A DNA stretch of 64,000 nucleotides. Origin: Crocosphaera watsonii WH 8501. GTDB lineage: Bacteria > Cyanobacteriota > Cyanobacteriia > Cyanobacteriales > Microcystaceae. Where the stretch lies: positions 558,001 to 622,000 of the forward strand of contig NZ_AADV02000001.1 of NCBI RefSeq assembly GCF_000167195.1, read 5' to 3'. The notes beneath the pieces were generated by a model. That model saw only the letters and a program-made list of their open reading frames with translations, had not been told where the DNA came from and searched no databases. Positions 9,979 to 59,989 of this stretch are shown here, one piece after another. Position 1 is the stretch's first letter. Each line of letters opens with the position of its first letter. The translations under genes and the position numbers were made by a program.

Positions 9979-11973
9979 CCCGAATTTCTCACAAAATCTG
10001 CGATCGCCAAACACAGGAGCCTTACAGGAAGTGGGTTTGAACAGAGCGGTCGCAGATTTCCCCAACCAACAGTCTGTTGTCAGATTTTAAGTTAAAATCA
10101 ACCCGAATTAGACAAAGATGAAAAGATAAATCAATCACTCATTTTTCCAAAAAAATTATTAATAAAATCTCTAATAGTACTAGATTGTTAGAATAAAATA
10201 TGCTATAATTCAATTATTAAAGCAATTTACCTTAAACTGATTTAATGAGTCCCAGTCATCCCCGAACCCCTCGTCAAGTAATCAACTTTAGTAAACAGAA
10301 AGGAAAAGAAATAATCGCTAATTTTGATGGGGACTAATCACTTCAGATGCGGGGATTGTCTGGATAGCTGAGTTGGATAAAAAACTGGGAATTACCGAGA
10401 AGTTTGGTAACTGTTTTCAAGATCATCGTCATCAATCTTATGTAGATCATTCCGTTCATGAGTTATTAGCACAAAGGCTTTATGGAATTATTTTAGGCTA
10501 TGAAGATGTCAATGACCATGATAAATTAAGTCACGATCCTGCCCTTAAGATCGCTTTAGAAAAGCTTAATGAACTTGAAGATAAAAAGGGATGGTTAGCT
10601 GGAAAAAGTACAATTAATAGATTGGAATATTGTCCTGAGACTATTCTCGACCAAAAAACGAGTCGTTATCATAAAATAGAACCCAACTTTGAAGCCATTG
10701 AAAAATCTTTTGTCGAATTTTGTTTAGAGTCTTATAAAAAACCTCCCTTAAGTATTATATTAGATATGGATGTCACGGATGACCAAGTACATGGTAATCA
10801 AGAAGGGGCATTTTTTAATAGTTATTATCACGGAGTATGTTATGCTCCTTTATATATTTTCTGTGGGCATCATTTATTAGTGGCTAAACTTCGTTCATCT
10901 AATGTAGATCCAGCCGATGGAGCCTTAGACGAATTACAAAGAATTATCGGACTAATTAGAGAAAAATGGTCAGAGACTCATATCCTAGTTAGGGGTGATA
11001 GTGCCTATGCCCGTGAAGAAATCTTCTATTTTTGTGAAAATCAGCCTTTAGTTGATTATGTTATAGCTATGGGAACAAATGGCGTTCTTAAGTTACGAGC
11101 GGATGATGTAATTGAAAAAGCCAAACATGAATATGAAAAAAAACTAGCTCCAATAACTGAATTAATGGATAGTTTATTTCAGAAAAAAGAAGATTTAGAA
11201 GAAGTTGAAAAATTAGTACCAATTTCTACTTGGTATCGCTCTATTCGTTATAAAACAGAAAAGTCATGGAGTTGTCAAAGAAGAGTAGTGACAAAAGTTT
11301 GTTATGGAAGTGATGGCTTAAAAATGCGCCATGTGGTGACATCTTTGCCCGCTTCAAAAATTCCACCCTCAAAACTTTATACAAAAAAATACTGTCCGAG
11401 AGGCGAGATGGAAAATCGGATTAAAGAACAACAATTAGACTTGTTAGCTGATAGAACTTCAACTCAAACATTTCAAAGTAATCAACTAAGATTATGGATA
11501 CATTCCTGGGCTTATGTTCTCATAAATGCTTTTCGTCAACACTGTTTAAAAAAAACTTCATTGGCTAAAGCAACTGTGGGAAGAATACGTCTAAATCTTC
11601 TTAAGTTGGGAGCCAGAATAAAGATTAGTTGTAGAAGAATTATTATCGCTATAGCTAGTGCTTGTCCTTATCAAGATATTTTATCTATTGCTAACAAAAG
11701 AATTAAAACTATTCCTAATACTGGATAAGTAGAATAAGTTGTTTTTTAAAAAAGATATCTATCATAAGTTGTTGACTGACTGATACTTTCATTTAGTCTT
11801 ATTTATCGTGGAGAAAATCAAAAGTTAATATAATTATTCCCTCTTAAACTCAATTTTTGGATAATCAAAGTCAATTTTTTTATTCATCTATATTCAAAAT
11901 TTCTATTAGTCCTAAAAATTATCATTTTTCATCTCTGGATTGGGCTTTCAAATTAATTTGTGAGAAATCCGGG
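9979..11973 (+). mobile_element. IS1380-family element, copy 2
   Basis: This copy is bounded by CCCGAATTTCTCACAAA and TTTGTGAGAAATCCGGG and is 1995 bp long, one base longer than copy 1 because of an A8/A7 difference. The left flank is tnpB (ending GGTTAT) and the right flank is the interior of an IS-C transposase (starting TTTAGCAT). The two flanks show no target duplication and belong to different elements, so this copy sits at a recombination or deletion junction rather than at a clean insertion. Confidence 0.9.
10245..11728 (+). CDS. IS1380-family transposase (needs a -1 frame change near the 5' end)
   Basis: From codon 10373 (TTG) to the stop there are 451 residues with the DDE segments ILDMDVTDDQVHG, VRGDSAYAREE and ENRIKEQQLDL. 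The C-terminal part lost in copy 1 is intact here (TSLAKATVGRIRLNLLKLG). Family members carry about 40 more N-terminal residues. These are present from the ATG at 10245 (MSPSHPRTPRQVINFSKQKG), but in another frame that stops at 10335..10337. A one-base backward slip at GATGGGGACT (10326..10335) joins the two and restores DGGLITSDAGIVWIAEL. Either translation shifts here or this element lost a base and was moved in trans by a complete copy. Confidence 0.8.
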
Positions 11974-12251
11974 TTTAGCATATTCTTCCTCAAAATCATC
12001 CCAAGGTATCAACTCTGCCATGATTACCCAACGATTATTGGGGGACAATTTGCCCTCGAAAGGTAATTCAAATTTTTCTGGGGGCGGTAAAGGTTGCTCC
12101 TCTTTTCGATACATTTGTTCTTGACCAACAACTGGGAGGTGTTTCTACCAATTATAGCGGTTTGTAGCCGACAAAGCTGATCTTTTTTGCGATCGCGAAT
12201 ATGGGTGTAACCTTTTAAAGAATAGGGTTTTGCTTTTATTCAGCAAACCCT
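11974..12251 (-). mobile_element. IS-C remnant: transposase 5' end and terminal repeat
   Basis: The sequence matches the 5' end of IS-C copies elsewhere in the window. It includes the transposase start MYRKEEQPLPPPEKFELPFE up to EEEYAK and the terminal CAGCAAACCCT at 12241..12251. It is cut at codon 46 or so by the IS1380 element. AATT, the duplicated target of other IS-C copies, follows at 12252. Confidence 0.85.
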
Positions 12252-13056
12252 AATTAAGGACGCTTTACAATCAGGTTATAACGTCCTAGCGGAAAAACCC
12301 TTAACCCTTGATCCTGGGGAATGTTTAGAATTAACTCGTCTAGCAAAACAGCGACAGCGACAGTTAATGATTGATCATACTTATTTATTCCATGCTGCTG
12401 TCAATCAAGGCAAATCTTTTCTAGAAAAGGGTGAGTTAGGAAAATTGCGCTATGGTTATGCCAGTCGTACTCATTTGGGCCCAGTTCGTCAGGATGTAGA
12501 TGCACTTTGGGACTTAGCTATTCACGATATTAGCATCTTTAACCATTGGTTGGGGGAATATCCTGATCGAGTCCAAGCACAAGGAAAGGTTTGGTTACGG
12601 GGCGATCGCCTTACTGCTTTGTCTCCTGATGGTTTAGGGGACATGGTTTGGGTCACTCTATATTATCCTAGCGGATTTCAAGCAACTATTCATCTGTGTT
12701 GGTGTAATCCTGATAAACAGCGTCGTTTGTGTGTGGTAGGTAGTCAAGGAACGTTAATTTTTGAGGAAATGTTGTCAGATGAACCCCTCGTTTTGCAACA
12801 GGGTTATGTGCAACCGCAAGGGGAAAAATTTATCCCTCAAGGACTAGAAAAACAGGTTATTTCTGTGGAGAAAGCGGAACCCCTCAAAGAAGTTTGCGAT
12901 CGCTTTTTAAACGCTGTTCATACCAATACCCCTTGTGAATTTTCTTCGGGAATAGTTGCCACTAAATTAGTACAAATTTTAACTTGTTTAAGTGATTCGC
13001 TACAAAAAAATGGGGCAATTATTTCTATTCCTGAGTTAGATTTTCCTGGAGAATAG
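12252..13056 (+). pseudogene. Gfo/Idh/MocA-family oxidoreductase, N-terminus removed by IS-C
   Basis: The open frame begins at the IS-C boundary (KDALQSGYNVLAEKPLTLDPG) and continues through the family's EKP motif, with the conserved Lys of this enzyme class, into the C-terminal substrate-binding fold (LWDLAIHDISIFNHWLG, with the conserved H-D-x-x-x pair). The N-terminal Rossmann segment with the GxGxxG motif, about 85 residues, is missing, so NAD(P) binding would be lost. An internal ATG at 12367 gives a 229-residue frame, but this starts inside the fold and is unlikely to be functional. The native substrate (a sugar or inositol-like compound) cannot be told. Confidence 0.8.
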
Positions 13057-18377: not shown

Positions 18378-18410
18378 AAGATTTTACTCAATATTTAGTT
18401 AGATTTAATT

Positions 18411-20102
18411 AGGGTTTGCTGAATAAAAGCAAAACCCTATTCTTTAAAAGGTTACACCCATATTCGCGATCGCAAAAAAGATCAGCTTTGTCGGCTACAA
18501 ACCGCTATAATTGGTAGAAACACCTCCCAGTTGTTGGTCAAGAACAAATGTATCGAAAAGAGGAGCAACCTTTACCGCCCCCAGAAAAATTTGAATTACC
18601 TTTCGAGGGCAAATTGTCCCCCAATAATCGTTGGGTAATCATGGCAGAGTTGATACCTTGGGATGATTTTGAGGAAGAATATGCTAAACTTTTTCAGCAG
18701 AAAAAGGTGCGCCAGCCAAACTATTTAGAATGGCATTAGGGACATTAATTATTAAGGAAAAATTAGGAACAAGTGATAGAGAAACTATAGAACAGATTAG
18801 AGAAAATCCCTATCTACAATACTTTATAGGTTTAAATTGTTATCAACAAGAGCCACCACTGGAATCTTCAATGCTAGTTCATTTTAAGAAAAGAATTGAT
18901 GGAGAATTGATAAACAAAATCAATAAAAAAATAGTAAAAAGAGAAATAGACAAGAGTGATAAAGAAGTAAAAAAAAAGGATTGTCTCCAAGAAAAAGGAG
19001 AAAAAATAAAAAATAAAGGTAAACTAATTTTAGATGCGACTTGTGCGCCAGCAGACATCAAATACCCAACGGATTTAGGCATATTAAATAAAGCCAGAAT
19101 TGAGACAGAAAGAATAATAGATAATCTTTATAAACCATTAAGAGTAAAATTGAGAAAAAAGCCGAGAACTTCTAGAAAAATTGCTAGAAAGGAATACTTA
19201 AAAGTAGCTAAAAAACGAAAAGTATCTTATCAAGAAAGAAGAAAAGCTATCGGGAAACAGTTAAAATACCTTAAGAAAAATTTAGGAAATATAGAAGACT
19301 TAATTCAAGCTGGGGCTTCCCTGGAAAATCTGAGTAAAAGACAGAAAAATTGTCTAGAGACTATCAAAAAAGTTTATGAACAACAACAGTCAATGTGGGA
19401 GAATAAGACCCAGAGTGTTCCTCAAAGAATTGTAAGTTTAACTCAACCGCATATTCGTCCAATAGTGAGGGGAAAAGCAGGAAAACCAATAGAGTTTCGA
19501 GCTAAACTCTCAGTAAGCTGTGTAGATAACTATGTGTTTCTAGACAAAATAAGTTGGGAAAACTTCAATGAATCTTGTCATTTAAAAGAACAAGTAGAAA
19601 AGTATAAAGAAACGTTTGGCTATTATCCCGAATCCGTCCATGTAGATAAAATTTATCGAACTAGGGAAAACAGAAATTGGTGTAAGGAAAGAGGGATAAG
19701 AATCAGTGGTCCGAAGTTAGGAAGACCTCCGAAAAATGTCAGTGAAGAAGAAAAGAAACAAGCCCACTCCGATGAATGCTTCCGTAATGCTATTGAGGGA
19801 AAGTTTGGACAAGCTAAACGAAGATTTAGCCTAAATTTCGTGATGACAAAACTCCCTGAAACCTCCATTACATCTATTGCTATTACATTTTTAGTTGTCA
19901 ATCTTTCTAAACTTCTGAGGCAGTTTTTGTCGCTTTTTTTGTCCTTATTTACTAATAATAGAACAGGGGAACTCATCAAACCGCCTTTCATTAATTTTGA
20001 TTATACTTTAAACAATTTTTATGTACTAAAACTTATTGATTTGTCAGAAAATTCTTGGTCAAAAGTGGCATAAATTTTGGAGAAACTTTTTCAGCAAACC
20101 CT
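18411..20102 (+). mobile_element. IS-C, copy 1 (AATT target duplication)
   Basis: Terminal repeats AGGGTTTGCTGA and TCAGCAAACCCT bound 1692 bp. AATT is duplicated at 18407..18410 and 20103..20106, so this is a clean insertion just upstream of, or at the start of, the RAYT gene. The transposase has one frameshift. Confidence 0.93.
18548..20073 (+). pseudogene. IS-C transposase (DUF772/IS5- or IS1182-like DDE), frameshifted
   Basis: The N-terminal frame (MYRKEEQPLPPPEKFELPFE) runs out at QQKKVRQPNYLEWH because a T run is five bases long here and six in the other copies (near 18692). From 18730 the second frame supplies the rest, including the DDE residues in LILDATCAPADI, SVHVDKIYRTREN and AIEGKFGQAKRRF. 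The family name is tentative: the fold and N-terminal domain resemble the DUF772-containing IS5/IS1182 group. Confidence 0.85.
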
Positions 20103-20672
20103 AATTATCGTCGTCTTTATGTTCCTGGTGGAACCTATTTTTTCACAATAGTTACTTATCAAAGACGGCCTTATTTTGCTAATTCAGATAATGTGAATAA
20201 ACTTCGTACAGCAGTAGCAACTGTCAAAAAAGAAATGCCTTTTAATATTTTTGGTGCAGTTATTTTACCTAATCATCTTCATTTTCTTTGGGTATTACCT
20301 CCTAATGATAAAAACTATTCTAAACGTATTGGACACATTAAAACCCTATTTACAAAATCATTTCGGGGTAATAACGCTTTACCTAAGACGGTTTCTATTT
20401 CTCGACAAAAACACCGTGAAAGTAATGTTTGGCAACGACGTTTTTGGGAACATACAATACAAGATGAATCAGAGTTAGAAACTTATTTGAATTATATTCA
20501 CTATAATCCAGTTAAACATGGTTTAGTTTCTTGTCCCCATTTGTGGTCATATTCAAGTTTTCATAGTTTGGTTCAAAAAGATGGATATTCATCTAGTTGG
20601 GGATGTGTTTGTCAGGGAAAATTAGATAAAATTCCTAATTTTGATAACATTAAAAATTATGTTGGTGAATGA
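20103..20672 (+). CDS. REP-associated tyrosine transposase (RAYT, Y1_Tnp), 5' end altered by IS
   Basis: This is a single-domain HUH nuclease of the IS200-like/RAYT type. The HUH pair is in LPNHLHFLW and the catalytic Tyr is in LNYIHYNPVKHG; the N-terminal motif is YRRLYVPGGTYFFTIVTYQRRPYF. RAYTs cut single-stranded DNA at REP palindromes, and one lies 55 bases downstream. IS-C inserted at the gene's first codons. Without the IS no ATG is visible upstream; with it, the IS contributes ATG at 20055 in frame (MVKSGINFGETFSANPNYRR), so a fusion start is possible. Expression is uncertain. Confidence 0.8.
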   Translation, partial: NYRRLYVPGGTYFFTIVTYQRRPYFANSDNVNKLRTAVATVKKEMPFNIFGAVILPNHLHFLWVLPPNDKNYSKRIGHIKTLFTKSFRGNNALPKTVSISRQKHRESNVWQRRFWEHTIQDESELETYLNYIHYNPVKHGLVSCPHLWSYSSFHSLVQKDGYSSSWGCVCQGKLDKIPNFDNIKNYVGE

Positions 20673-20757: not shown

Positions 20758-21666
20758 TTAGGTCTTTCTATGTTTGTGCGTTTCACTCAAAAAAACTATA
20801 AGTGTAGATGCTGCACCAACAGCTAATTTTGCGTGTCTTGGTTGTAAACCTTTGCTTGAATTGGATTTACCATGACCAGTACCATAGTGATTTCTTAACT
20901 CAGCAATTCCTTGAGTAATTGTTGCTAAATTACTGAGTAGGTTTTTAATAGTGTCACTTGCTTTCGCTTTGTCAGGAATATCTTCTGGAGTTAACTCTAA
21001 TTGCTTAACAGTAAGCTTAACAAGTTTAGTCAACTTTTCCTTTTTGGTAAATTGTATATTGCATTCTTCTAATATGCTTTTACAACAAGTTTCTCCTGAC
21101 TCCTTCGCAGTACCTATTGCTAATTCTGGATCATGATTAATAGCTTTTTCCATACGCTCAAGTTGTTTGGAAATATATTCATCATCAATACCTGAGAATA
21201 ATTCTTGAACTAACGGTATTCCTGGTAAGATTGATGTTCCTATAAACTGGCCTTTAAAGATTGGTTTCTTTGAAATTTGTCCTTTTTCAATTATTTGATA
21301 TCCATCGTTTTTTAAGTGTTTATTATAAAGTTCACAGAGTTTTTGTGCTTCGTGAATATCTTGTCTGACAACAGGATGAATAGTTTCACAAAGAAATCTG
21401 AGAAAAGTCTCATCATCACCCCTTATTAAGTTAAATCTTGGATCATCAAAAATCCAGTCTATTGGCCAGTCATTATTATTAACAGTATGTTGCCATATAT
21501 CTTGTTCAGCATTGTTAAATCTGCCATCAAAAGACTCCAGAGATTCTAAATCCCAAATTCTTGAAAGAAACTCAATTTCTTCCAGTCGACCATACAATTC
21601 AATCTCCTCCAAGAATATTGAATCTATAATATCTCTTCTTGTAACTTCTGTAATTTTAGTGTCCAT
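20758..21666 (-). CDS. Abortive-infection family protein (AbiJ N-terminal-like + Abi_C)
   Basis: The 302-residue protein has two parts. Residues 30-110 (IWDLESLESFDGRFNNAEQ, then DWIFDDPRFNLIRGDDETFL) resemble the AbiJ N-terminal domain family that often precedes Abi_C. Residues 185-300 are an Abi_C domain, with AIGTAKESGETCCKSILEE, IAELRNHYGTGHGKS and QPRHAKLAVGAASTLIVF. Proteins of this type are linked to phage resistance by growth arrest, but the activity of this one is unknown. It is a single gene, convergent with the RAYT, in a stretch rich in mobile elements. The start ATG at 21666 is the only in-frame candidate before the conserved region. Confidence 0.75.
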   Translation of the reverse strand: MDTKITEVTRRDIIDSIFLEEIELYGRLEEIEFLSRIWDLESLESFDGRFNNAEQDIWQHTVNNNDWPIDWIFDDPRFNLIRGDDETFLRFLCETIHPVVRQDIHEAQKLCELYNKHLKNDGYQIIEKGQISKKPIFKGQFIGTSILPGIPLVQELFSGIDDEYISKQLERMEKAINHDPELAIGTAKESGETCCKSILEECNIQFTKKEKLTKLVKLTVKQLELTPEDIPDKAKASDTIKNLLSNLATITQGIAELRNHYGTGHGKSNSSKGLQPRHAKLAVGAASTLIVFLSETHKHRKT

Positions 21667-21773: not shown

Positions 21774-24700
21774 TTAATTAGCACAAGCAGTACAATTATT
21801 ATCAGACTCTTTAAAATCGTCTTTCTGAACTGTCCTAACGTAATATATCGCCTTACAACCTTCTTTCCAAGCTAATAGTAACGTCTCAAAAATATCCTTA
21901 GCAGTCAAACAGCGTTCTGGTTCATCAGCAAAGTAAACACCCTGATTCAAATTAAACAACAATTCCATAGAAATTCCTGTATCTATCCATTGTTGAATAG
22001 TTGCAACCGCTTTGACCACTTTTTGTTGTTCTAGGGTCTTATTTTCGTGATAAAACCAGAAAGATTCTTTAATAAATGGAGGTGCAATAGGAATCGTTCC
22101 CTTAGCCCATTTATCGTAAAAGAAACGACTATAAACAGGGAGAATACTAGCCGTACAACCCTGTACCAAAGAAGAAGAAGTATTAGGGGCGATCGCAGTG
22201 ATATGGGAGTTACGAATACCATAAGTTTTTATGTCTTCTGATAACTGCACCCAACGCTCTTTTTTAGAAGCATTTTCAACGAACCAATCAACAGGTTTTG
22301 AACCTATTAATAACCCTTTACTCCAGTCGCTTCCCTCGAAAGCGTTATAAGGACTTCTTTCTTTGGCCAACTCCATAGATGTATGGGTACACCAATAACC
22401 TACCTCTTCAAATAAGTTACTAATTTCGGTTATATTTTCGTAGGTTAAACCCTTTTTAGCCAACCAGTCAGCTAACCCCATACAACCAACTCCAACGGTG
22501 CGATATCTATCGTTATGTGCCTTTGCATCGTTAAATGGAGGGTTAGTAATATCGATAGTATTATCCAGAATACGAACAGAAATATTACAAAGATAATCCA
22601 GTTCTTCTTCCTCAATATTGGCTAAATTTAAGCTAACTAAATTACAGCAATGAGCAAACTTTCCAGGAGTAACATTGGAAAAAGATTCCGTACATTGTCC
22701 TGTCAAAATGCCATTAAACATTCCTAAATGACGTTTTGGTTCGCTGAAGCAATAAGTATCATCATAACGACAAGTTAACTCTACCTTTTCGACACGAATA
22801 AACTGACTCGCTTCTCGCTGTGGTTCCCTCAAGTTCCACTGTAAACGATTAGTTTTTAATCCGAGTTCTCCTAACTGGAATAAACCATTAGATGAGATCA
22901 ATAAACGATATTTTGCCTGACAAAAATAGTCTTGATATCCTCCCTTTCCATCAGGAAGAGATCGATAACCCATCTCGTCCATTTTGACCACTTTAGAATC
23001 CACCCCTAATGTTTGTAACATCAGACGAATATCTAAAAGAAATTGTTGATGAGTCGAAGCAACTTGTAGAGATTCATTGTCACCATTTCTAGCAACAGTT
23101 CCATCAGCATCTAATAACCCTGCAAGCCATTCTAAACGAGATTGTATGGTGTAACCATTAACAGGAACGGTAAATTTAGCAGGGATATCTAACGGCAGTT
23201 TACAAACAATTCTATCTTGATTTACATCATCATAAACTGCTACTTCATCCCGTTCAATGCGCCAACTTTTATCCCCATAACTTCCTCCGTAATACTTATT
23301 ACGAACGGTAACAAATGGTAGTAGTTCTTTCTTTTCACCATATAAATCTATCTCTGGTTTTCCCATACCGTCATGACTTCCATCACCACTAAAAAAGCCT
23401 GATGTATAAGCATAGGGAAAATCGATGTCATTCTCTGATTCCACTAAAGGAAGACGATATTTAATCAATTTATCTCCCTCTTGTAAATCTTTGGCCTCAA
23501 CAATTTTTACTTTGCCTTTGTAATTTTCTTGAACATGAAACTTATGATAATAAGTACAGTCCAAGGACTCACCATTAGAAAAGTGAACCTTTAACAAAGG
23601 TTGATTTTCTCCTGTCTTTTTAACTAAAACTTCCGACCATTCTGAACCATTCCAAATATTAACCTTTTCTCCTGCTACATCAGCGATCGCTATTTGTCCC
23701 CTATCTGTTAAAATTTTTGTTTCAGGGGCAACACATAAATTTACACCCGGAATATAGCCCACGTGCTTATTCGGATTAGCCTTATTAATAGTATCTTTAA
23801 AAGCTAAATAAGGCATCCCTGTTTCTACCTGCGATCGCATTATTGTTTTAAACAATTCACGAGCATTAACACGCTTATACAGAGTAATTTCTCTATCTAA
23901 TTCCGCCTCGATTAAACCATAAGCTTCCTCAAACTTTTCTCCCCATAATTCTGCTAACTCAATACCCAACTTTTCTTTGACTTGATAGGGATCAACTAAA
24001 GTCCATTCCTCTTTATTTTCCACCCGACGCATAAATTCATCGGTCAATATTAACTGAGGAAAAACATCATAAGCTTTGCGTCTTTGATCCCCGTTTTCTG
24101 TTTGTATCTCTAAAAATTCTGGTACATCTAAATGCCAAATATCCAGTCCAACGGTAACAGCACCGGCCCTTCTTCCTCCTTGGTTAACGGCGATCGCAGT
24201 ATCATTTAACAACTTAATCCAAGGAATAACCCCCCCAGAAGCGTTATTTTTCCCCATCACCCAGCTACCAGTGGCCCGAATACGACTGACATTAACCCCA
24301 ACACCACCGCCATTTTTGGAGATCCTCGCAGTGTTGGTAATCTCTTCAAAAATGCTCTCTAAGTTGTCGTCTATAGACAAAATGAAACAACTGGTCAAAG
24401 ACCCCCCCGGAACCCGTAAATTAGCTAAAATAGGGGTTGCCAGAGACACTTTACCCTTGGCTATGGCTTCATAAAATCGTTTTGCCCAAGGTAATCTATT
24501 TTCAGGGCTTTCTACCGTTGCCAATAGTAAAGCACAGGTTAAGAAAGCTTCTTGGGGAAGTTCATCGTCCAAAAGGTAACGACTGGTTAACAAAACCGCT
24601 CCAGCGTAGTCGTAGTCAGTATCCCAGTCTGGATTAATCCAACTTCCAGCCTCTTGTAATTCTGCTGTAGAATAGGTTAAGAGACGATTATCGTATTGTT

Positions 24701-25124
24701 TAGCATCTATTTTAGTCTTTGCTACAATTTCATAGTTACCATACTGATAACCCCTACTGACTAGGGTATCTTTCCAGAGACTCCAGATATGCAGTCTTCC
24801 GGCAATATAACGCCAGTCTGGTTCATCGGGACTACACATTTCCAAAGCACAGTTAATTAGGTTATCCTGGATCTCCCTGGTGGTGATACCGTCCCGTAAA
24901 CGAGTTGTTAACCCTGCTTCTAAGGCAATACTGTTTACTTCTCGATCAGCACAGGCCCAGTCTACCACTGCCCGAATCTTGACTATATTTAACGCAGTCC
25001 AAGATCCGTCCCGTCGTCTCACTCTAATCTTACTCTCTCCTAACTGTGAATGGTAAAGAGAAGAGGTTTGAGTGTCGCCATGAGAGGTTTGTTTAGGGGA
25101 AGTTAAGACGGTGGGTTGCATCAT
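21774..25124 (-). CDS. nrdA: Ribonucleoside-diphosphate reductase large subunit, with an intein
   Basis: The precursor is 1116 residues. Removing the intein (464-810) leaves 769, normal for a cyanobacterial class I alpha subunit, which reduces ribonucleotides for DNA synthesis. The N-terminal ATP-cone lies around RVRRRDGSWTALNIVKI. The barrel includes SLTSCFILSI with a redox Cys, NGGGVGVNVSRI and PNTSSSLVQGCTASILPVYS. The tail CTACAN carries the C-terminal Cys pair. The radical-site motif NLCxE is split: NL precedes the intein and CTESF follows it, so catalysis needs splicing. Paired NrdR-like boxes lie 94-152 bases upstream. No nrdB partner is in the window. Confidence 0.93.
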   Translation of the reverse strand: MMQPTVLTSPKQTSHGDTQTSSLYHSQLGESKIRVRRRDGSWTALNIVKIRAVVDWACADREVNSIALEAGLTTRLRDGITTREIQDNLINCALEMCSPDEPDWRYIAGRLHIWSLWKDTLVSRGYQYGNYEIVAKTKIDAKQYDNRLLTYSTAELQEAGSWINPDWDTDYDYAGAVLLTSRYLLDDELPQEAFLTCALLLATVESPENRLPWAKRFYEAIAKGKVSLATPILANLRVPGGSLTSCFILSIDDNLESIFEEITNTARISKNGGGVGVNVSRIRATGSWVMGKNNASGGVIPWIKLLNDTAIAVNQGGRRAGAVTVGLDIWHLDVPEFLEIQTENGDQRRKAYDVFPQLILTDEFMRRVENKEEWTLVDPYQVKEKLGIELAELWGEKFEEAYGLIEAELDREITLYKRVNARELFKTIMRSQVETGMPYLAFKDTINKANPNKHVGYIPGVNLCVAPETKILTDRGQIAIADVAGEKVNIWNGSEWSEVLVKKTGENQPLLKVHFSNGESLDCTYYHKFHVQENYKGKVKIVEAKDLQEGDKLIKYRLPLVESENDIDFPYAYTSGFFSGDGSHDGMGKPEIDLYGEKKELLPFVTVRNKYYGGSYGDKSWRIERDEVAVYDDVNQDRIVCKLPLDIPAKFTVPVNGYTIQSRLEWLAGLLDADGTVARNGDNESLQVASTHQQFLLDIRLMLQTLGVDSKVVKMDEMGYRSLPDGKGGYQDYFCQAKYRLLISSNGLFQLGELGLKTNRLQWNLREPQREASQFIRVEKVELTCRYDDTYCFSEPKRHLGMFNGILTGQCTESFSNVTPGKFAHCCNLVSLNLANIEEEELDYLCNISVRILDNTIDITNPPFNDAKAHNDRYRTVGVGCMGLADWLAKKGLTYENITEISNLFEEVGYWCTHTSMELAKERSPYNAFEGSDWSKGLLIGSKPVDWFVENASKKERWVQLSEDIKTYGIRNSHITAIAPNTSSSLVQGCTASILPVYSRFFYDKWAKGTIPIAPPFIKESFWFYHENKTLEQQKVVKAVATIQQWIDTGISMELLFNLNQGVYFADEPERCLTAKDIFETLLLAWKEGCKAIYYVRTVQKDDFKESDNNCTACAN
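22695..23735 (-). other. NrdA intein (347 aa) with LAGLIDADG endonuclease domain
   Basis: The intein begins CVAPETKILTDRGQIAI (block A), with block B at LDCTYYHKFHV (TxxH). The homing endonuclease motifs are TSGFFSGDGSHDG and LEWLAGLLDADGTVA. The C-terminal splicing block is TYCFSEPKRHLGMFNGILTGQ, followed by the extein Cys. The last two residues are Gly-Gln instead of the usual His-Asn, a rare variant known from some RIR1-type inteins. The +1 residue is the enzyme's own radical Cys. Confidence 0.92.
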
Positions 25125-25276: not shown

Positions 25277-25361
25277 ATGGGATTTTTACCTTAACTTGTT
25301 TTGCTCCCTATGATTGTGATTTTCACTACATTAACTGAATATGTTCTGATATCTTCTAATT

Positions 25362-27054
25362 AGGGTTTGCTGAAAAAGTTTCTCCAAAATTTATGCCACT
25401 TTTGACCAAGAATTTTCTGACAAATCAATAAGTTTTAGTACATAAAAATTGTTTAAAGTATAATCAAAATTAATGAAAGGCGGTTTGATGAGTTCCCCTG
25501 TTCTATTATTAGTAAATAAGGACAAAAAAAGCGACAAAAACTGCCTCAGAAGTTTAGAAAGATTGACAACTAAAAATGTAATAGCAATAGATGTAATGGA
25601 GGTTTCAGGGAGTTTTGTCATCACGAGATTTAGGCTAAATCTTCGTTTAGCTTGTCCAAACTTTCCCTCAATAGCATTACGGAAGCATTCATCGGAGTGG
25701 GCTTGTTTCTTTTCTTCTTCACTGACATTTTTCGGAGGTCTTCCTAACTTCGGACCACTGATTCTTATCCCTCTTTCCTTACACCAATTTCTGTTTTCCC
25801 TAGTTCGATAAATTTTATCTACATGGACGGATTCGGGATAATAGCCAAACGTTTCTTTATACTTTTCTACTTGTTCTTTTAAATGACAAGATTCATTGAA
25901 GTTTTCCCAACTTATTTTTTCTAGAAACATATAGTTATCTACACAGCTTACTGAGAGTTTAGCTCCAAACTCTATTGGTTTTCCTGCTTTTCCCCTCACT
26001 ATTGGACGAATATGCGGTTGAGTTAAACTTACAATTCTTTGAGGAACACTCTGGGTCTTATTCTCCCACATTGACTGTTGTTGTTCATAAACTTTTTTGA
26101 TAGTCTCTAGACAATTTTTCTGTCTTTTACTCAGATTTTCCAGGGAAGCCCCAGCTTGAATTAAGTCTTCTATATTTCCTAAATTTTTCTTAAGGTATTT
26201 TAACTGTTTCCCGATAGCTTTTCTTCTTTCTTGATAAGATACTTTTCGTTTTTTAGCTACTTTTAAGTATTCCTTTCTAGCAATTATTCTAGAAGTTCTC
26301 GGCTTTTTTCTCAATTTTACTCTTAATGGTTTATAAAGATTATCTATTATTATTTCTGTCTCAATTCTGGCTTGATTTAATATGCCTAAATCCGTTGGGT
26401 ATTTGATGTCTGCTGGCGCACAAGTCGCATCTAAAATTAGTTTACCTTTATTTTTTATTTTTTCTCCTTTTTCTTGGAGACAATCCTTTTTTTTTACTTC
26501 TTTATCACTCTTGTCTATTTCTCTTTTTACTATTTTTTTATTGATTTTGTTTATCAATTCTCCATCAATTCTTTTCCTAAAATGAACTAGCATTGAAGAT
26601 TCCAGTGGTGGCTCTTGTTGATAACAATTTAAACCTATAAAGTATTGTAGATAAGGATTTTCTCTAATCTGTTCTATAGTTTCTCTATCACTTGTTCCTA
26701 ATTTTTCCTTAATAATTAATGTCCCTAATGCCATTCTAAATAGTTTGGCTGGCGCACCTTTTTCTGCTGAAAAAAGTTTAGCATATTCTTCCTCAAAATC
26801 ATCCCAAGGTATCAACTCTGCCATGATTACCCAACGATTATTGGGGGACAATTTGCCCTCGAAAGGTAATTCAAATTTTTCTGGGGGCGGTAAAGGTTGC
26901 TCCTCTTTTCGATACATTTGTTCTTGACCAACAACTGGGAGGTGTTTCTACCAATTATAGCGGTTTGTAGCCGACAAAGCTGATCTTTTTTGCGATCGCG
27001 AATATGGGTGTAACCTTTTAAAGAATAGGGTTTTGCTTTTATTCAGCAAACCCT
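25362..27054 (-). mobile_element. IS-C, copy 2 (intact, AATT target duplication)
   Basis: The copy is 1693 bp with AGGGTTTGCTGA and TCAGCAAACCCT ends and AATT at 25358..25361 and 27055..27058. It is inserted into the 3' part of a glycosyltransferase gene. It is the only copy here with an uninterrupted transposase. Confidence 0.95.
25391..26917 (-). CDS. IS-C transposase, intact (508 aa)
   Basis: This is the full-length reference for the four copies. Residues 20-120 form the DUF772-like N-terminal domain (MALGTLIIKEKLGTSDRETI, then SSMLVHFRKRIDG). A Lys/Glu-rich coiled region (160-290) splits the catalytic core. The DDE triad is in LILDATCAPADI, SVHVDKIYRTREN and AIEGKFGQAKRRF. It could supply transposase in trans to the three defective copies. 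Close to IS5/IS1182-group transposases; the exact family is not certain. Confidence 0.9.
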   Translation of the reverse strand: MYRKEEQPLPPPEKFELPFEGKLSPNNRWVIMAELIPWDDFEEEYAKLFSAEKGAPAKLFRMALGTLIIKEKLGTSDRETIEQIRENPYLQYFIGLNCYQQEPPLESSMLVHFRKRIDGELINKINKKIVKREIDKSDKEVKKKDCLQEKGEKIKNKGKLILDATCAPADIKYPTDLGILNQARIETEIIIDNLYKPLRVKLRKKPRTSRIIARKEYLKVAKKRKVSYQERRKAIGKQLKYLKKNLGNIEDLIQAGASLENLSKRQKNCLETIKKVYEQQQSMWENKTQSVPQRIVSLTQPHIRPIVRGKAGKPIEFGAKLSVSCVDNYMFLEKISWENFNESCHLKEQVEKYKETFGYYPESVHVDKIYRTRENRNWCKERGIRISGPKLGRPPKNVSEEEKKQAHSDECFRNAIEGKFGQAKRRFSLNLVMTKLPETSITSIAITFLVVNLSKLLRQFLSLFLSLFTNNRTGELIKPPFINFDYTLNNFYVLKLIDLSENSWSKVA

Positions 27055-27603
27055 AATTAAAACACAGGCAAAACTCGTCCATTGGGGTCTAAAAGGCGTA
27101 TTCTGGACAGGTATGGGGACATTATAAGCATCAAGCAGCTTGGTAATAGGTCCAGTTGCTGCACCATCGATAAACTGACTGATAGGGGAATGATAGCGAA
27201 AACAGCTAATTTGTGGGGTTTCATCGGGCCATTCGAGACGGGGACTGATTAAACCCGCTTCGGGATGCTTTTCTAAAGCGGTTTCTAGAGAAGCTATCGC
27301 CCCAGGCCTAAGGATGGTATCACTATTAAGCAACAAATAAGCTTTAGCAGTAATTGCTTTGATTCCTACGTTGTTACCCGCAGAAAACCCACCGTTAACG
27401 GGTGAGGGAATTAAAGTTACCCAAGATTCCCACTGATATTCCTTAATAGCTTGTTCTAAAATAGGAAGAGAATCATCCCCAGAGTCGTTATCCACTAACA
27501 TTACTTTATGACGCGAACTGTCTATTTGGGGTTGGAGGGATTGTAAAGAGTCGATCACCAGTTTTGGGGTTCGATAGTTAATAATAACAACAGCTAGATC
27601 CAT
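27043..27603 (-). pseudogene. Family 2 glycosyltransferase, C-terminus lost to IS-C
   Basis: The frame reads AVVIINYRTPKLVIDSLQS, MLVDNDSGDDSLPIL, NGGFSAGNNVGI and LLLNSDTILRPGAIASLE, the nucleotide-sugar-binding and metal-binding (DxD-like NSDT) core of GT2 rhamnosyl/WcaA-like transferases. It ends at SFACVLI, where IS-C inserts and supplies the stop RVC*. On the far side of the IS, IRR continues as in the family, then the frame stops soon after, so the C-terminal half is gone. Probably inactive. Confidence 0.8.
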
Positions 27604-48342: not shown

Positions 48343-48408
48343 AAGGGATCTCCTTTATCAGAAATCACCTAAAAATGAGACAAAACGAACCTACTGTATT
48401 CTTAGTAT

Positions 48409-50101
48409 AGGGTTTGCTGAAAAAGTTTCTCCAAAATTTATGCCACTTTTGACCAAGAATTTTCTGACAAATCAATAAATTTTAGTACATAAAAATTGTT
48501 TAAAGTATAATCAAAATTAATGAAAGGCGGTTTAATGAGTTCCCCTGTTCTATTATTAGTAAATAAGGACAAAAAAAGCGACAAAAACTGCCTCAGAAGT
48601 TTAGAAAGATTGACAACTAAAAATGTAATAGCAATAGATGTAATGGAGGTTTCAGGGAGTTTTGTCATCACGAGATTTATGCTAAATCTTCGTTTAGCTT
48701 GTCCAAACTTTCCCTCAATAGCATTACGGAAGCATTCATCGGAGTGGGCTTGTTTCTTTTCTTCTTCACTGATATTTTTCGGAGGTCTTCCTAACTTCGG
48801 ACCACTGATTCTTATCCCTCTTTCCTTACACCAATTTCTGTTTTCCCTAGTTCGATAAATTTTATCTACATGGACGGATTCGGGATAATAGCCAAACGTT
48901 TCTTTATACTTTTCTACTGGTTCTTTTAAATGACAAGATTCATTGAAGTTTTCCCAACTTATTTTGTCTAGAAACACATAGTTATCTACACAGCTTACTG
49001 AGAGTTTAGCTCCAAACTCTATTGGTTTTCCTGCTTTTCCCCTCACTATTGGACGAATATGCCGTTGAGTTAAACTTACAATTCTTTGAGGAACACTCTG
49101 GGTCTTATTCTCCCACATTGACTGTTGTTGTTCATAAACTTTTTTGATAGTCTCTAGACAATTTTTCTGTCTTTTACTCAGATTTTCCAGGGAAGCCCCA
49201 GCTTGAATTAAGTCTTCTATATTTCCTAAATTTTTCTTAAGGTATTTTAACTGTTTCCCGATAGCTTTTCTTCTTTCTTGATAAGATACTTTTCGTTTTT
49301 TAGCTACTTTTAAGTATTCCTTTCTAGCAATTTTTCTAGAAGTTCTCGGCTTTTTTCTCAATTTTACTCTTAATGGTTTATAAAGATTATCTATTATTCT
49401 TTCTGTCTCAATTCTGGCTTGATTTAATATGTCTAAATCCGTTGGGTATTTGATGTCTGCTGGCGCACAAGTCGCATCTAAAATTAGTTTACCTTTATTT
49501 TTTATTTTTTCTCCTTTTTATTGGAGACAATCCTTTTTTTTTACTTCTTTATCACTCTTGTCTATTTCTCTTTTTACTATTTTTTTATTGATTTTGTTTA
49601 TCAATTCTCCATCAATTCTTTTCCTAAAATGAACTAGCATTGAAGATTCCAGTGGTGGCTCTTGTTGATAACAATTTAAACCTATAAAGTATTGTAGATA
49701 GGGATTTTCTCTAATCTGTTCTATAGTTTCTCTATCACTTGTTCCTAATTTTTCCTTAATAATTAATGTCCCTAATGCCATTCTAAATAGTTTGGCTGGC
49801 GCACCTTTTTCTGCTGAAAAAAGTTTAGCATATTCTTCCTCAAAATCATCCCAAGGTATCAACTCTGCCATGATTACCCAACGATTATTGGGGGACAATT
49901 TGCCCTCGAAAGGTAATTCAAATTTTTCTGGGGGCGGTAAAGGTTGCTCCTCTTTTCGATACATTTGTTCTTGACCAACAACTGGGAGGTGTTTCTACCA
50001 ATTATAGCGGTTTGTAGCCGACAAAGCTGATCTTTTTTGCGATCGCGAATATGGGTGTAACCTTTTAAAGAATAGAGTTTTGCTTTTATTCAGCAAACCC
50101 T
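48409..50101 (-). mobile_element. IS-C, copy 3 (no target duplication)
   Basis: The copy is 1693 bp. The left flank ends AGTAT and the right flank starts AATTAATC, so the 4-bp duplication seen around copies 1 and 2 is missing. A flank has probably been exchanged by recombination. The transposase carries a nonsense codon. Confidence 0.88.
48438..49964 (-). pseudogene. IS-C transposase with nonsense mutation
   Basis: The frame is collinear with the intact copy, but the codon after KKKDCLQ is TAA in place of GAA (at about 49518..49520; TTATTGG in place of TTCTTGG on the plus strand). No frameshift is needed to join the two halves. The catalytic residues are present downstream. Confidence 0.88.
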
Positions 50102-50117
50102 AATTAATCATCTCCTC

Positions 50118-57721: not shown

Positions 57722-58262
57722 TATTGCTGTAGAGCTAAAAGCAGATATTATCCTTGAGTTGTTGGAAAAGCAAGCGAGTAGCACAGAACGTTAAGCGCAT
57801 AATAGCATCTTTCCCCTTAGCTTGCTTAACCTCCTTGAAATTGTCCCATTTCTTCCCCAACTTTTTCCCTATCTCTGTATTTAACCGCTTAGGTGGTTTA
57901 GGACAGATACTGGACAGACACCATATATAATAATTCTGTCTAAAAGCCACTTAAACCCATTACTACCCGGTGGAAAGGGTTGGAAGCTTCCCACGATAAC
58001 CTTACCTCTAGTAAGGTTATTTCGACTGGTTGCCATCCAGTTCTCATTCAGGTGGGGAGGGGAAAACATTCCTGATCCGGTTCACCCAGTCAAGGATGAC
58101 TTTAACCGAAAATAAACTCAGGTTATATGCCACTTGATACTCGTTAACTAAGTTTTTAACATCGTCTTCCCATACTTCTATCTTCTCGGGATCAACCTCC
58201 TCAACTTCATCATCTTTGAGATCGCCTTCTTCATTCATTTCCCCTGTTTCTGGATCGTAGTT
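57722..58262 (-). pseudogene. Decayed gene of unknown function, truncated by IS-C copy 4
   Basis: Several minus-strand frames appear to be parts of one older gene. The first (58262 to 58044), open from the IS boundary, reads YDPETGEMNEEGDLKDDEVE and a helix VNEYQVAYNLSLFSVKVILD. A later one (57735..57950, another frame) reads KRLNTEIGKKLGKKWDNFKE and IMRLTFCATRLLFQQLKD. I cannot place it in a family. A perfect 10-bp hairpin ATAACCTTAC/GTAAGGTTAT lies at 57996..58020. It is not expected to yield a functional protein. Confidence 0.35.
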
Positions 58263-59948
58263 AGGGTTTGCTGAATAAAAGCAAAACCCTATTCTTTAAA
58301 AGGTTACACCCATATTCGCGATCGCAAAAAAGATCAGCTTTGTCGGCTACAAACCGCTATAATTGGTAGAAACACCTCCCAGTTGTTGGTCAAGAACAAA
58401 TGTATCGAAAAGAGGAGCAACCTTTACCGCCCCCAGAAAAATTTGAATTACCTTTCGAGGGCAAATTGTCCCCCAATAATCGTTGGGTAATCATGGCAGA
58501 GTTGATACCTTGGGATGATTTTGAGGAAGAATATGCTAAACTTTTTTCAGCAGAAAAAGGCGCGCCAGCCAAACTATTTAGAATGGCATTAGGGACATTA
58601 ATTATTAAGGAAAAATTAGGAACAAGTGATAGAGAAACTATAGAACAGATTAGAGAAAATCCCTATCTACAATACTTTATAGGTTTAAATTGTTATCAAC
58701 AAGAGCCACCACTGGAATCTTCAATGCTAGTTCATTTTAGGAAAAGAATTGATGGAGAATTGATAAACAAAATCAATAAAAAATAGTAAAAAGAGAAATA
58801 GACAAGAGTGATAAAGAAGTAAAAAAAAAGGATTGTCTCCAAGAAAAAGGAGAAAAAATAAAAAATAAAGGTAAACTAATTTTAGATGCGACTTGTGCGC
58901 CAGCAGACATCAAATACCCAACGGATTTAGGCATATTAAATCAAGCCAGAATTGAGACAGAAAGAATAATAGATAATCTTTATAAACCATTAAGAGTAAA
59001 ATTGAGAAAAAAGCCGAGAACTTCTAGAAAAATGCTAGAAAGGAATACTTAAAAGTAGCTAAAAAACGAAAGTTTCTTATCAGAAAGAAGAAAGCTATCG
59101 GGAAACAGTTAAAATACTTAAGAAAATTTAGGAAATATAGAAGACTTAATTCAAGCTGGGGCTTCCCTGGAAAATCTGAGTAAAAGACAGAAAAATTGTC
59201 TAGAGACTATCAAAAAAGTTTATGAACAACAACAGTCAATGTGGGAGAATAAGACCCAGAGTGTTCCTCAAAGAATTGTAAGTTTAACTCAACCGCATAT
59301 TCGTCCAATAGTGAGGGGAAAAGCAGGAAACCCAATAGATTTTGGAGCTAAACTCTCAGTAAGCTGTGTAGATAACTATGTGTTTCTAGACAAAATAAGT
59401 TGGGAAAACTTCAATGAATCTTGTCATTTAAAAGAACAAGTAGAAAAGTATAAAGAAACGTTTGGCTATTATCCCGAATCCGTCCATGTAGATAAAATTT
59501 ATCGAACTAGGGAAAACAGAAATTGGTGTAAGGAAAGAGGGATAAGAATCAGTGGTCCGAAGTTAGGAAGACCTCCGAAAAATGTCAGTGAAGAAGAAAA
59601 GAAACAAGCCCACTCCGATGAATGCTTCCGTAATGCTATTGAGGGAAAGTTTGGACAAGCTAAACGAAGATTTAGCCTAAATCTCGTGATGACAAAACTC
59701 CCTGAAACCTCCATTACATCTATTGCTATTACATTTTTAGTTGTCAATCTTTCTAAACTTCTGAGGCAGTTTTTGTCGCTTTTTTTGTCCTTATTTACTA
59801 ACAATAGAACAGGGGAACTCATCAAACCGCCTTTCATTAGTTTTGATTATACTTTAAACAATTTTTATGTACTAAAACTTATTGATTTGTCAGAAAATTC
59901 TTGGTCAAAAGTGGCATAAATTTTGGAGAAACTTTTTCAGCAAACCCT
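58263..59948 (+). mobile_element. IS-C, copy 4 (decayed, no target duplication)
   Basis: The copy is 1686 bp. The left flank is the decayed gene (ending GTAGTT). The right flank is the terminal 41 bases of an IS1634-type element. No 4-bp duplication is present, so the junction was rearranged. Confidence 0.88.
58400..59919 (+). pseudogene. IS-C transposase with several small deletions
   Basis: The first frame ends at INKK because an A run is six rather than seven bases long (58780s). Further one-base losses in the region 59028..59130 (for example AGAAAAATGC for AGAAAAATTGC) change frame again. The last 226 residues, with the second Asp and the Glu of the DDE triad, are collinear with the intact copy. 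Confidence 0.88.
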
Positions 59949-59989
59949 ATGTATTTTTTTATACTACATTTTGAAGTGCGGAATCTGGG
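59949..59989 (-). mobile_element. Remnant of IS1634-type left end
   Basis: The 41 bases ATGTATTTTTTTATACTACA then TTTTGAAGTGCGGAATCTGGG match the left end at 34083..34126 in reverse, with one single-base difference. They truncate the phytochrome gene and are themselves cut by IS-C copy 4. Confidence 0.85.

Follow-up and report, generated by a model that had tools for sequence, protein, structure and literature searches.

The window analysed here, a stretch of 64,000 nucleotides from Crocosphaera watsonii WH 8501 (contig NZ_AADV02000001.1, positions 558,001 to 622,000), carries on its reverse strand an nrdA gene encoding the large subunit of a class I ribonucleotide reductase (RNR), within which an intein is inserted. 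The frame runs uninterrupted from 25124 to 21774, with no stop codon or frameshift across 1116 codons, and profile matches cover the NrdA host domains (ATP cone, all-alpha and barrel). The features of the precursor are given below; conservation counts refer to 115 non-redundant rows of the intein family unless stated otherwise, and intein residues are numbered from its first cysteine.

21774..25124 (-): nrdA precursor, class I RNR large subunit with intein, 1116 amino acids (open reading frame, domain matches)
23736..25124 (-): N-extein, amino acids 1-463, ending ...YIPGVNL (alignment to 1rlr N437-L438)
22695..23735 (-): intein of 347 amino acids (464-810), Hint plus LAGLIDADG endonuclease (junctions, model, fold match)
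23733..23735 (-): Cys464, intein residue 1 and N-terminal nucleophile (Cys in 115/115 rows)
23544..23555 (-): block B TxxH, intein T61-H64 (T61 in 114/115, H64 in 115/115)
23376..23411 (-): first LAGLIDADG-type motif, intein 109-120, with D118 (D in 100/115, E in 11, A in 4)
23100..23129 (-): second LAGLIDADG motif WLAGLLDADG, intein 203-212, with D209 (PF14528; D209 in 113/115)
22695..22760 (-): blocks F and G, DTYCFSEPKRHLGMFNGILTGQ (conservation across rows)
22695..22697 (-): Gln810 (CAA), final intein residue (CAA in 13/13 cyanobacterial NrdA inteins examined)
22692..22694 (-): Cys811, +1 splicing nucleophile and radical cysteine of the mature enzyme (aligns with E. coli R1 C439; +1 Cys in 114/115)
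21774..22694 (-): C-extein, amino acids 811-1116 plus stop

In E. coli R1, the thiyl radical is carried by C439, and N437 and E441 belong to the active site. The phmmer alignment to this protein (1rlr, counted back from residue 451) places the insert between L438 and C439, splitting the host motif N437-L438 | C439-x-E441 so that N437 is parted from C439 and E441. Six congeners (L064-L066, L068-L070) carry an uninterrupted NLCTESFSNV, which fixes both intein junctions. A preliminary description of the window, made from its letters alone, had put the intein directly before the thiyl-radical cysteine, and this placement holds, as Cys811 aligns with Cys439 of E. coli NrdA. The window intein starts with CVAPETKILTDRG and ends with HLGMFNGILTGQ (RHLGMFNGILTGQ), Thr-Gly-Gln being last and CTESFSNV coming next. 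The Gly-Gln ending instead of His-Asn, also part of that description, was found in all 14 insert-bearing loci (L001, L051-L063), so that a sequencing error concealing a canonical His-Asn is very unlikely.

The insert presents the parts of a class 1 intein: it is in frame and combines Cys1, Cys+1, the TxxH of block B (T61-Y-Y-H64), a terminal residue accepted in this class and, in the predicted model, the Hint fold. Blocks are named after PMC4031507, PMC6195587 and PMC7664689 and were fitted by us onto the window intein. In this numbering, Cys F:4 is residue 329, His F:13 is 336, Thr G:5 is 345, Gly G:6 is 346 and Gln G:7 is 347; Cys1 (115), His B:10 (115), Thr B:7 (114) and Cys F:4 (113) are near-invariant. 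The Pfam/NCBIfam profiles LAGLIDADG_3 (3e-12) and intein_Nterm TIGR01445 (above cut-off) matched, and both LAGLIDADG motifs retain their acidic residue, D118 and D209. Class 1 inteins typically end in Asn, with Gln, Asp and Glu as recognised variants, and terminal Gln is listed among those of class 1 (PMC4031507). About 5% of functional inteins have a penultimate residue other than His (PMC4031507), which makes this His frequent yet dispensable.

To what extent the intein is under constraint was read from the ratio of nonsynonymous to synonymous change (dN/dS) against the nearest intein-bearing locus, L002. The two splicing parts gave 0.037 (N-terminal) and 0.043 (C-terminal), the endonuclease gave 0.098, and the two exteins gave 0.096 and 0.076. 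The AlphaFold2 model of the intein, computed from 66 sequences, reached a mean predicted local distance difference test score of 94.6 and a predicted template-modelling score of 0.92. It aligned with the TliVMA intein 7qss (VIA-align Z 23.5, root-mean-square deviation (rmsd) 4.7, 300 aligned residues), and its alignment to solved inteins runs from the first to the last residue. A search of solved structures with the intein sequence alone gave weak matches, the best being 2lwy, a bacterial intein-like domain, at E 0.002.

The nrdA precursor is the single match to PF02867 (RNR large subunit) in the genome, and PF00268 (small subunit, NrdB) likewise has a single match, on another contig. No second large subunit was found with PF02867, and no NrdD with PF13597, in the draft genome of 6.24 Mb and 323 contigs (completeness 99.95%); in 14 control genomes PF02867 matched 11, PF00268 7 and PF13597 6. 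The other intein-bearing congener (G004) has one large subunit as well. Because this is the only RNR detected, the cell depends on the splicing event unless the draft misses a gene, which upholds the earlier statement that the mature enzyme requires splicing. Purifying selection together with the single RNR argues against a crippled element: with intact splicing blocks, low dN/dS, a confident model and a sole RNR, the window intein does not look dead.

From its sequence, the insert is very probably an active, mobile, full-length RIR1-type intein, set in NrdA between the equivalents of L438 and C439 of E. coli. We infer that it splices, that it follows the class 1 order of steps and that its endonuclease cuts. 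Along the class 1 route, which is the most likely one, Cys464 would take up the N-extein as a thioester and Cys811 would then take it over from Cys464. Cyclisation of Gln810 to an aminoglutarimide would release the branch, and rearrangement of the extein thioester to a peptide bond would create the NLCxE active site, while the LAGLIDADG domain would spread the intein between nrdA alleles.

Several observations weigh against this interpretation. The Pfam profile Intein_splicing PF14890 scores 23.1 against a cut-off of 35.8, and the penultimate residue is Gly346, the usual His being missing. Between close pairs within another genus (L052 vs L053, L054, L055 and L057) the endonuclease dN/dS was 0.39-1.57 on 1-4 synonymous changes, so constraint on the endonuclease is not certain everywhere. 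A second RNR could be missing from a draft of 323 contigs. Lastly, the Pol II inteins of P. abyssi and M. marisnigri are slow with Gln and splice better with Asn (PMC4031507).

The preliminary description had called a terminal Gln rare. Inside this intein family it is not: of the 115 non-redundant rows, 84 have Gln as their last residue and 31 have Asn. Junctions were read for 163 matches. Setting aside five partial matches and a further one whose junction could not be read gave 157 (134 distinct); removal of one with internal stops left 133, which formed 115 clusters at the 90% level. These counts are to be read with the sampling in mind, since both patterns of the viral scan came from an alignment whose members all end in Gln (one being GMFNGI near the end) and the scan kept the best 80 of 114 loci, the named phages were hand-picked to spread over the listing, and parsing accepted only Asn or Gln as the last residue. 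At the NL|C site (class I radical cysteine) 42 rows ended in Gln and 18 in Asn; at NP|C, interpreted as the class II radical cysteine, 20 and 4; at FH|C of cyanobacterial NrdJ (plus one viral row), which we take to be the second active-site cysteine of class II enzymes, 16 and 8; and at other sites 6 and 1. Counted by source on the 115-row tree listing, the Gln/Asn numbers were 11/0 for cyanobacterial NrdA, 15/8 for cyanobacterial NrdJ, 51/14 for IMG/VR and 7/9 for the named phages. Gln is thus not the majority in the hand-picked phages, which speaks against Gln as a rule everywhere.

On a tree built without the last column, Gln and Asn changed into one another at least 15 times. A model of independent traits gave a Gln-to-Asn rate of 0.40 per unit length, with Asn-to-Gln at its lower bound, and on this ground Gln is probably ancestral inside the intein family, on a tree that carries no outgroup; the dependent model permits Asn-to-Gln (0.30) where Thr G:5 is absent. 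Passing from Gln to Asn takes two base changes, via Lys or His, and lineages may thereby stay Gln. Gln is the settled ending of this intein lineage and no fresh defect.

Two simpler accounts of the Gln were rejected. That the insertion site dictates it is countered by the 18 of 60 non-redundant NL|C rows that end in Asn, by a different intein at NP|CGE of cyanobacterial NrdJ that ends in AHN (L083, L091, L202), and by an intein at HC|CNLVSL in the NrdA of a congener (L033) that ends in VHN. That the organism prefers Gln throughout is countered by the two other complete inteins of its genome, in DnaB and in a phosphoenolpyruvate-synthase-like protein, which end in Asn. Three intein-type matches of this genome were named on sight, without a family search: a DnaE N-part with an intein start (L225), DnaB with an intein end VHN (L226) and the phosphoenolpyruvate-synthase-like protein with an intein end VCN (L228).

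The insert was present in 14 of the 98 genomes searched; 82 of the 98 matched the query, some through NrdJ inteins only. Within the genus, two of nine genomes carry it, six have an empty site, and the remaining one, G005, bears a different intein that lies 16 residues downstream and ends in VHN. The same arrangement was read in L033 (4001-7417, a Crocosphaera metagenome-assembled genome (MAG)), where the different, His-Asn-ended intein precedes the second Cys of HCCNLVSL. Two Rhizonema MAGs (L009, L010) also have an insert at the HCCNLVSL place, seen as a tblastn gap with its letters unread.

Divergence of intein and host was uneven. Between the window and L056, which belongs to another family of the same order, the inteins are 86.7% identical and the exteins 77.2%; for the pair L052-L061 the intein-minus-extein difference is +11.3 points. 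Over 78 cyanobacterial NrdA pairs the median of this difference is -4.4 points, from which both pairs stand out, and they are for this reason probable transfers. The 11 cyanobacterial NrdA rows form one clade among viral rows (SH-aLRT support 100, quick search on the 115-row tree), and in INPHARED a relative was found at E 1e-5 in 329 phage records. Phages often carry relatives, and the intein, which is of a known kind, moves horizontally and has passed between cyanobacteria. The uneven divergence of intein and exteins offers only indirect support for site-specific cleavage of the empty allele.

The Nostoc edaphicum plasmid pNe_5 (L114) has an intein-bearing nrdA with nrdB close by. In Vibrio phage ICP1_2011_A (L096) the intein frame is broken within the endonuclease and the record annotates two overlapping genes, unlike in ICP1_2001_A (L098), where the frame is intact. 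Group I introns lie in or beside frame breaks of nrdA in L008 (2109-2497), L063 (2629-2934, minus strand) and L048 (4858-5073); L008 and L063 also carry the Gln-ended intein, and the site is empty in L048.

The closest studied relative is the RIR1 intein of Chilo iridescent virus, which likewise sits in an RNR large subunit, has a C-terminal Gln and is 'full-length'. It is called 'glutamine-type' (PMC549080) and is allelic to SPbeta-prophage and cyanobacterial inteins (PMC1635734). Its host, unlike that of the window intein, is an insect virus, and the kinship rests on that allele assignment and on the SPbeta-type phage intein L110, which occupies the same NL|C site as the window intein. In its insertion before the radical Cys of the RNR large subunit, a position shared with SPbeta-type inteins, the window intein agrees with this RIR1 allele. 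The cyanobacterial NrdA inteins (Spirulina, Hydrococcus, Xenococcaceae, Nostoc plasmid pNe_5) share the site, end in GMFNGILTGQ and are about 66-94% identical to the window intein, HLGM reading NLGM in L063. Those of phage NrdA (ICP1, eugene 12A10, PH357, PhAER-4, phiTE, Silviavirus and Rheinheimera phages) have the same site and a GQ end and are about 42-49% identical, in host enzymes that are 22-29% identical in aligned pieces (Silviavirus and Rheinheimera exteins left out). The inteins of SPbeta-type NrdE and of T5-like, Corynebacterium and Caulobacter phages also occupy NL|C but end in Gly-Asn. The inteins of cyanobacterial NrdJ, a class II RNR, differ from that of the window in insertion point (FH|CNL) and RNR class, are about 25-30% identical and end in GQ or GN. 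The Pol II inteins of P. abyssi and P. horikoshii share the C-terminal Gln, Cys1 and Cys+1 with the window intein but are polymerase mini-inteins, and that of P. abyssi is slow with Gln and faster with Asn.

The suggestion that the Gln makes splicing slow or conditional is not supported, since the RNR intein of Chilo iridescent virus splices with higher efficiency when it keeps its native Gln than when Asn takes that place (PMC4031507); this efficiency of the closest studied relative speaks against slowness. A conditional switch would have the Gln slow the resolution of the branch, or make it stress-dependent, and thereby gate the supply of deoxynucleoside triphosphates, for example through a disulfide among Cys1, Cys60, Cys329 and Cys+1. 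These four cysteines do lie in or beside the splicing blocks, with C60 present in 80 of the 115 rows, and the cell relies on this one RNR. For the Pab Pol II intein, itself Gln-ended, and for the class 3 intein of Msm DnaB, published work describes splicing that depends on redox state. The Aquifex R2 intein reportedly raises iron loading, so that inteins of RNR can be of consequence to the organisms that carry them (PMC8772380). Besides the behaviour of the Chilo iridescent virus intein, however, the repeated exchange of Gln and Asn in the family, the presence of Gln in lytic phages such as ICP1, where a slow RNR should cost, and the empty site in six of nine genomes of the genus make such a switch unlikely. 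Redox gating of the window intein is possible in principle, and nothing specific to this intein supports a switch.

We also consider it quite improbable that the intein is a hybrid of classes 1 and 3, in which Cys F:4, acting with His B:10 and Thr G:5, would serve as an extra branch nucleophile beside Cys1. The conservation of Cys F:4 and of Thr G:5 (104/115 by alignment column) would fit such a hybrid, as would the full Trp-Cys-Thr in 11 of the 115 rows, every one of which has Cys1, the more so as this triplet is stated to be exclusive to class 3 inteins (PMC7664689). The Hint part can be laid over 6bs8, a DnaB intein of class 3 (Z 18.6, rmsd 1.8 over 122 residues), but equally well over the class 1 Ssp DnaB intein 1mi8 (Z 18.7, rmsd 1.7 over 125). 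Moreover, nearly every row retains Cys1 and the TxxH typical of block B in class 1, whereas class 3 inteins lack Cys1 and generally that block B Thr (PMC6195587), and Cys is the second commonest F:4 residue among inteins generally (PMC4031507). B:12 of the window intein is Phe, so that Phe66, Cys329 and Thr345 make up two of the three residues of Trp-Cys-Thr; with Phe-Cys-Thr and Cys1 present, the window intein is not class 3.

A dead remnant, in which splicing is lost and NrdA inactive, draws on the sub-threshold Intein_splicing score and on Gly-Gln in place of His-Asn, but it is extremely improbable given an intact frame of 1116 codons, a splicing-block dN/dS of about 0.04 and the sole RNR large subunit found in the genome.

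Thr G:5 provides a lead on the splicing mechanism. Thr stands at -3 in 83 of the 84 rows ending in Gln and in 20 of the 31 ending in Asn (21 when counted by alignment column). This was spotted by eye ahead of a covariation scan for Gln, which applied Fisher's test to 1041 column/residue pairs (1096 in the version including flanks). In a correlated-evolution test on the tree, Thr G:5 against Gln gave a likelihood ratio (LR) of 23.7 (4 degrees of freedom, p 9e-5). Taken on the alignment column, Thr 345 gave an LR of 20.4 (p 4e-4), the top of 24 column/residue pairs (14 best and 10 random), followed by Arg 297 with 13.6; several optimiser runs in this analysis gave a negative LR and were not fully converged. 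For 181 Leu, 218 Gly and 120 Thr the raw p values were similar or smaller, and on the tree their LR fell to 10.6, -0.3 and 8.9. The fitted model put the loss of Thr at its lower bound on a Gln background.

It should be noted that Bonferroni correction over 1041 pairs leaves p at about 0.1-0.4, which is not significant, and the coupling of Thr G:5 therefore stays a lead. An independent-pairs test on well-supported branches (7 pairs), in which Thr changed the same way 2.4 times and the opposite way 0.0 times on average, was not significant either. His F:13 as a required partner of Gln was unsupported, as His occupies this position in 57 of the 84 rows ending in Gln and in 15 of the 31 ending in Asn, the others having Asn or Gly.

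Published work on gp41-1 and on class 3 inteins makes a role of Thr G:5 plausible. The equivalent Thr123 of gp41-1 is needed for fast C-terminal cleavage, which T123A halves, although it acts through the penultimate His, a residue absent from the RNR intein family (PMC12245125). Class 3 inteins use a triad of Cys F:4, His B:10 and Thr G:5 (PMC7664689). The pattern in the alignment suggests that Thr G:5 may assist the cyclisation of Gln. A wider proposal, which we hold tentatively and rate as doubtful, is that the RNR active-site inteins are a lineage whose splicing is adapted to Gln: Thr G:5, possibly aided by Cys F:4 and His B:10 in a class 3-like manner, would offset the absent penultimate His and make Gln cyclisation efficient, and would become losable after a change to Asn.

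A Gln-ended RNR intein, insertion at the active site, ideas of conditional splicing and allelic spread over phages, cyanobacteria and iridoviruses are in print already. We recognised no description of how large the share of Gln is, of the repeated switching between Gln and Asn or of the coupling to Thr in the available portions of open-licence full texts, which leaves novelty unproven.

Two 1.7-kb copies of an insertion sequence (IS), inverted and 99.4% identical, flank nrdA and its neighbour at 18404-20107 and 25357-27061; additional copies occupy 48408-50107 and 58258-59949, and a fragment of 285 bp is found at 11973-12257. The transposase of this IS matches PF13586/PF05598. The sole RNR gene, lying between inverted IS copies, could be inverted by recombination. 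Adjoining nrdA at 20758-21666 (-) is a gene with AbiJ_NTD3 and Abi_C domains, probably for an abortive-infection protein, and at 20055-20672 (+) a gene for an IS200-like Y1_Tnp protein overlaps the end of an IS copy.

Because the family contains numerous natural variants ending in Gln or Asn at a single site, in a host enzyme whose catalysis can be checked, the questions of why Gln is used and whether it is slow are directly testable. If the proposal on Thr G:5 were true, the RNR active-site inteins would form a subclass by mechanism, combining Cys1 with a triad like that of class 3. For the host, as far as the draft genome shows, all synthesis of DNA precursors hinges on a single act of protein splicing, by which the radical site is completed.

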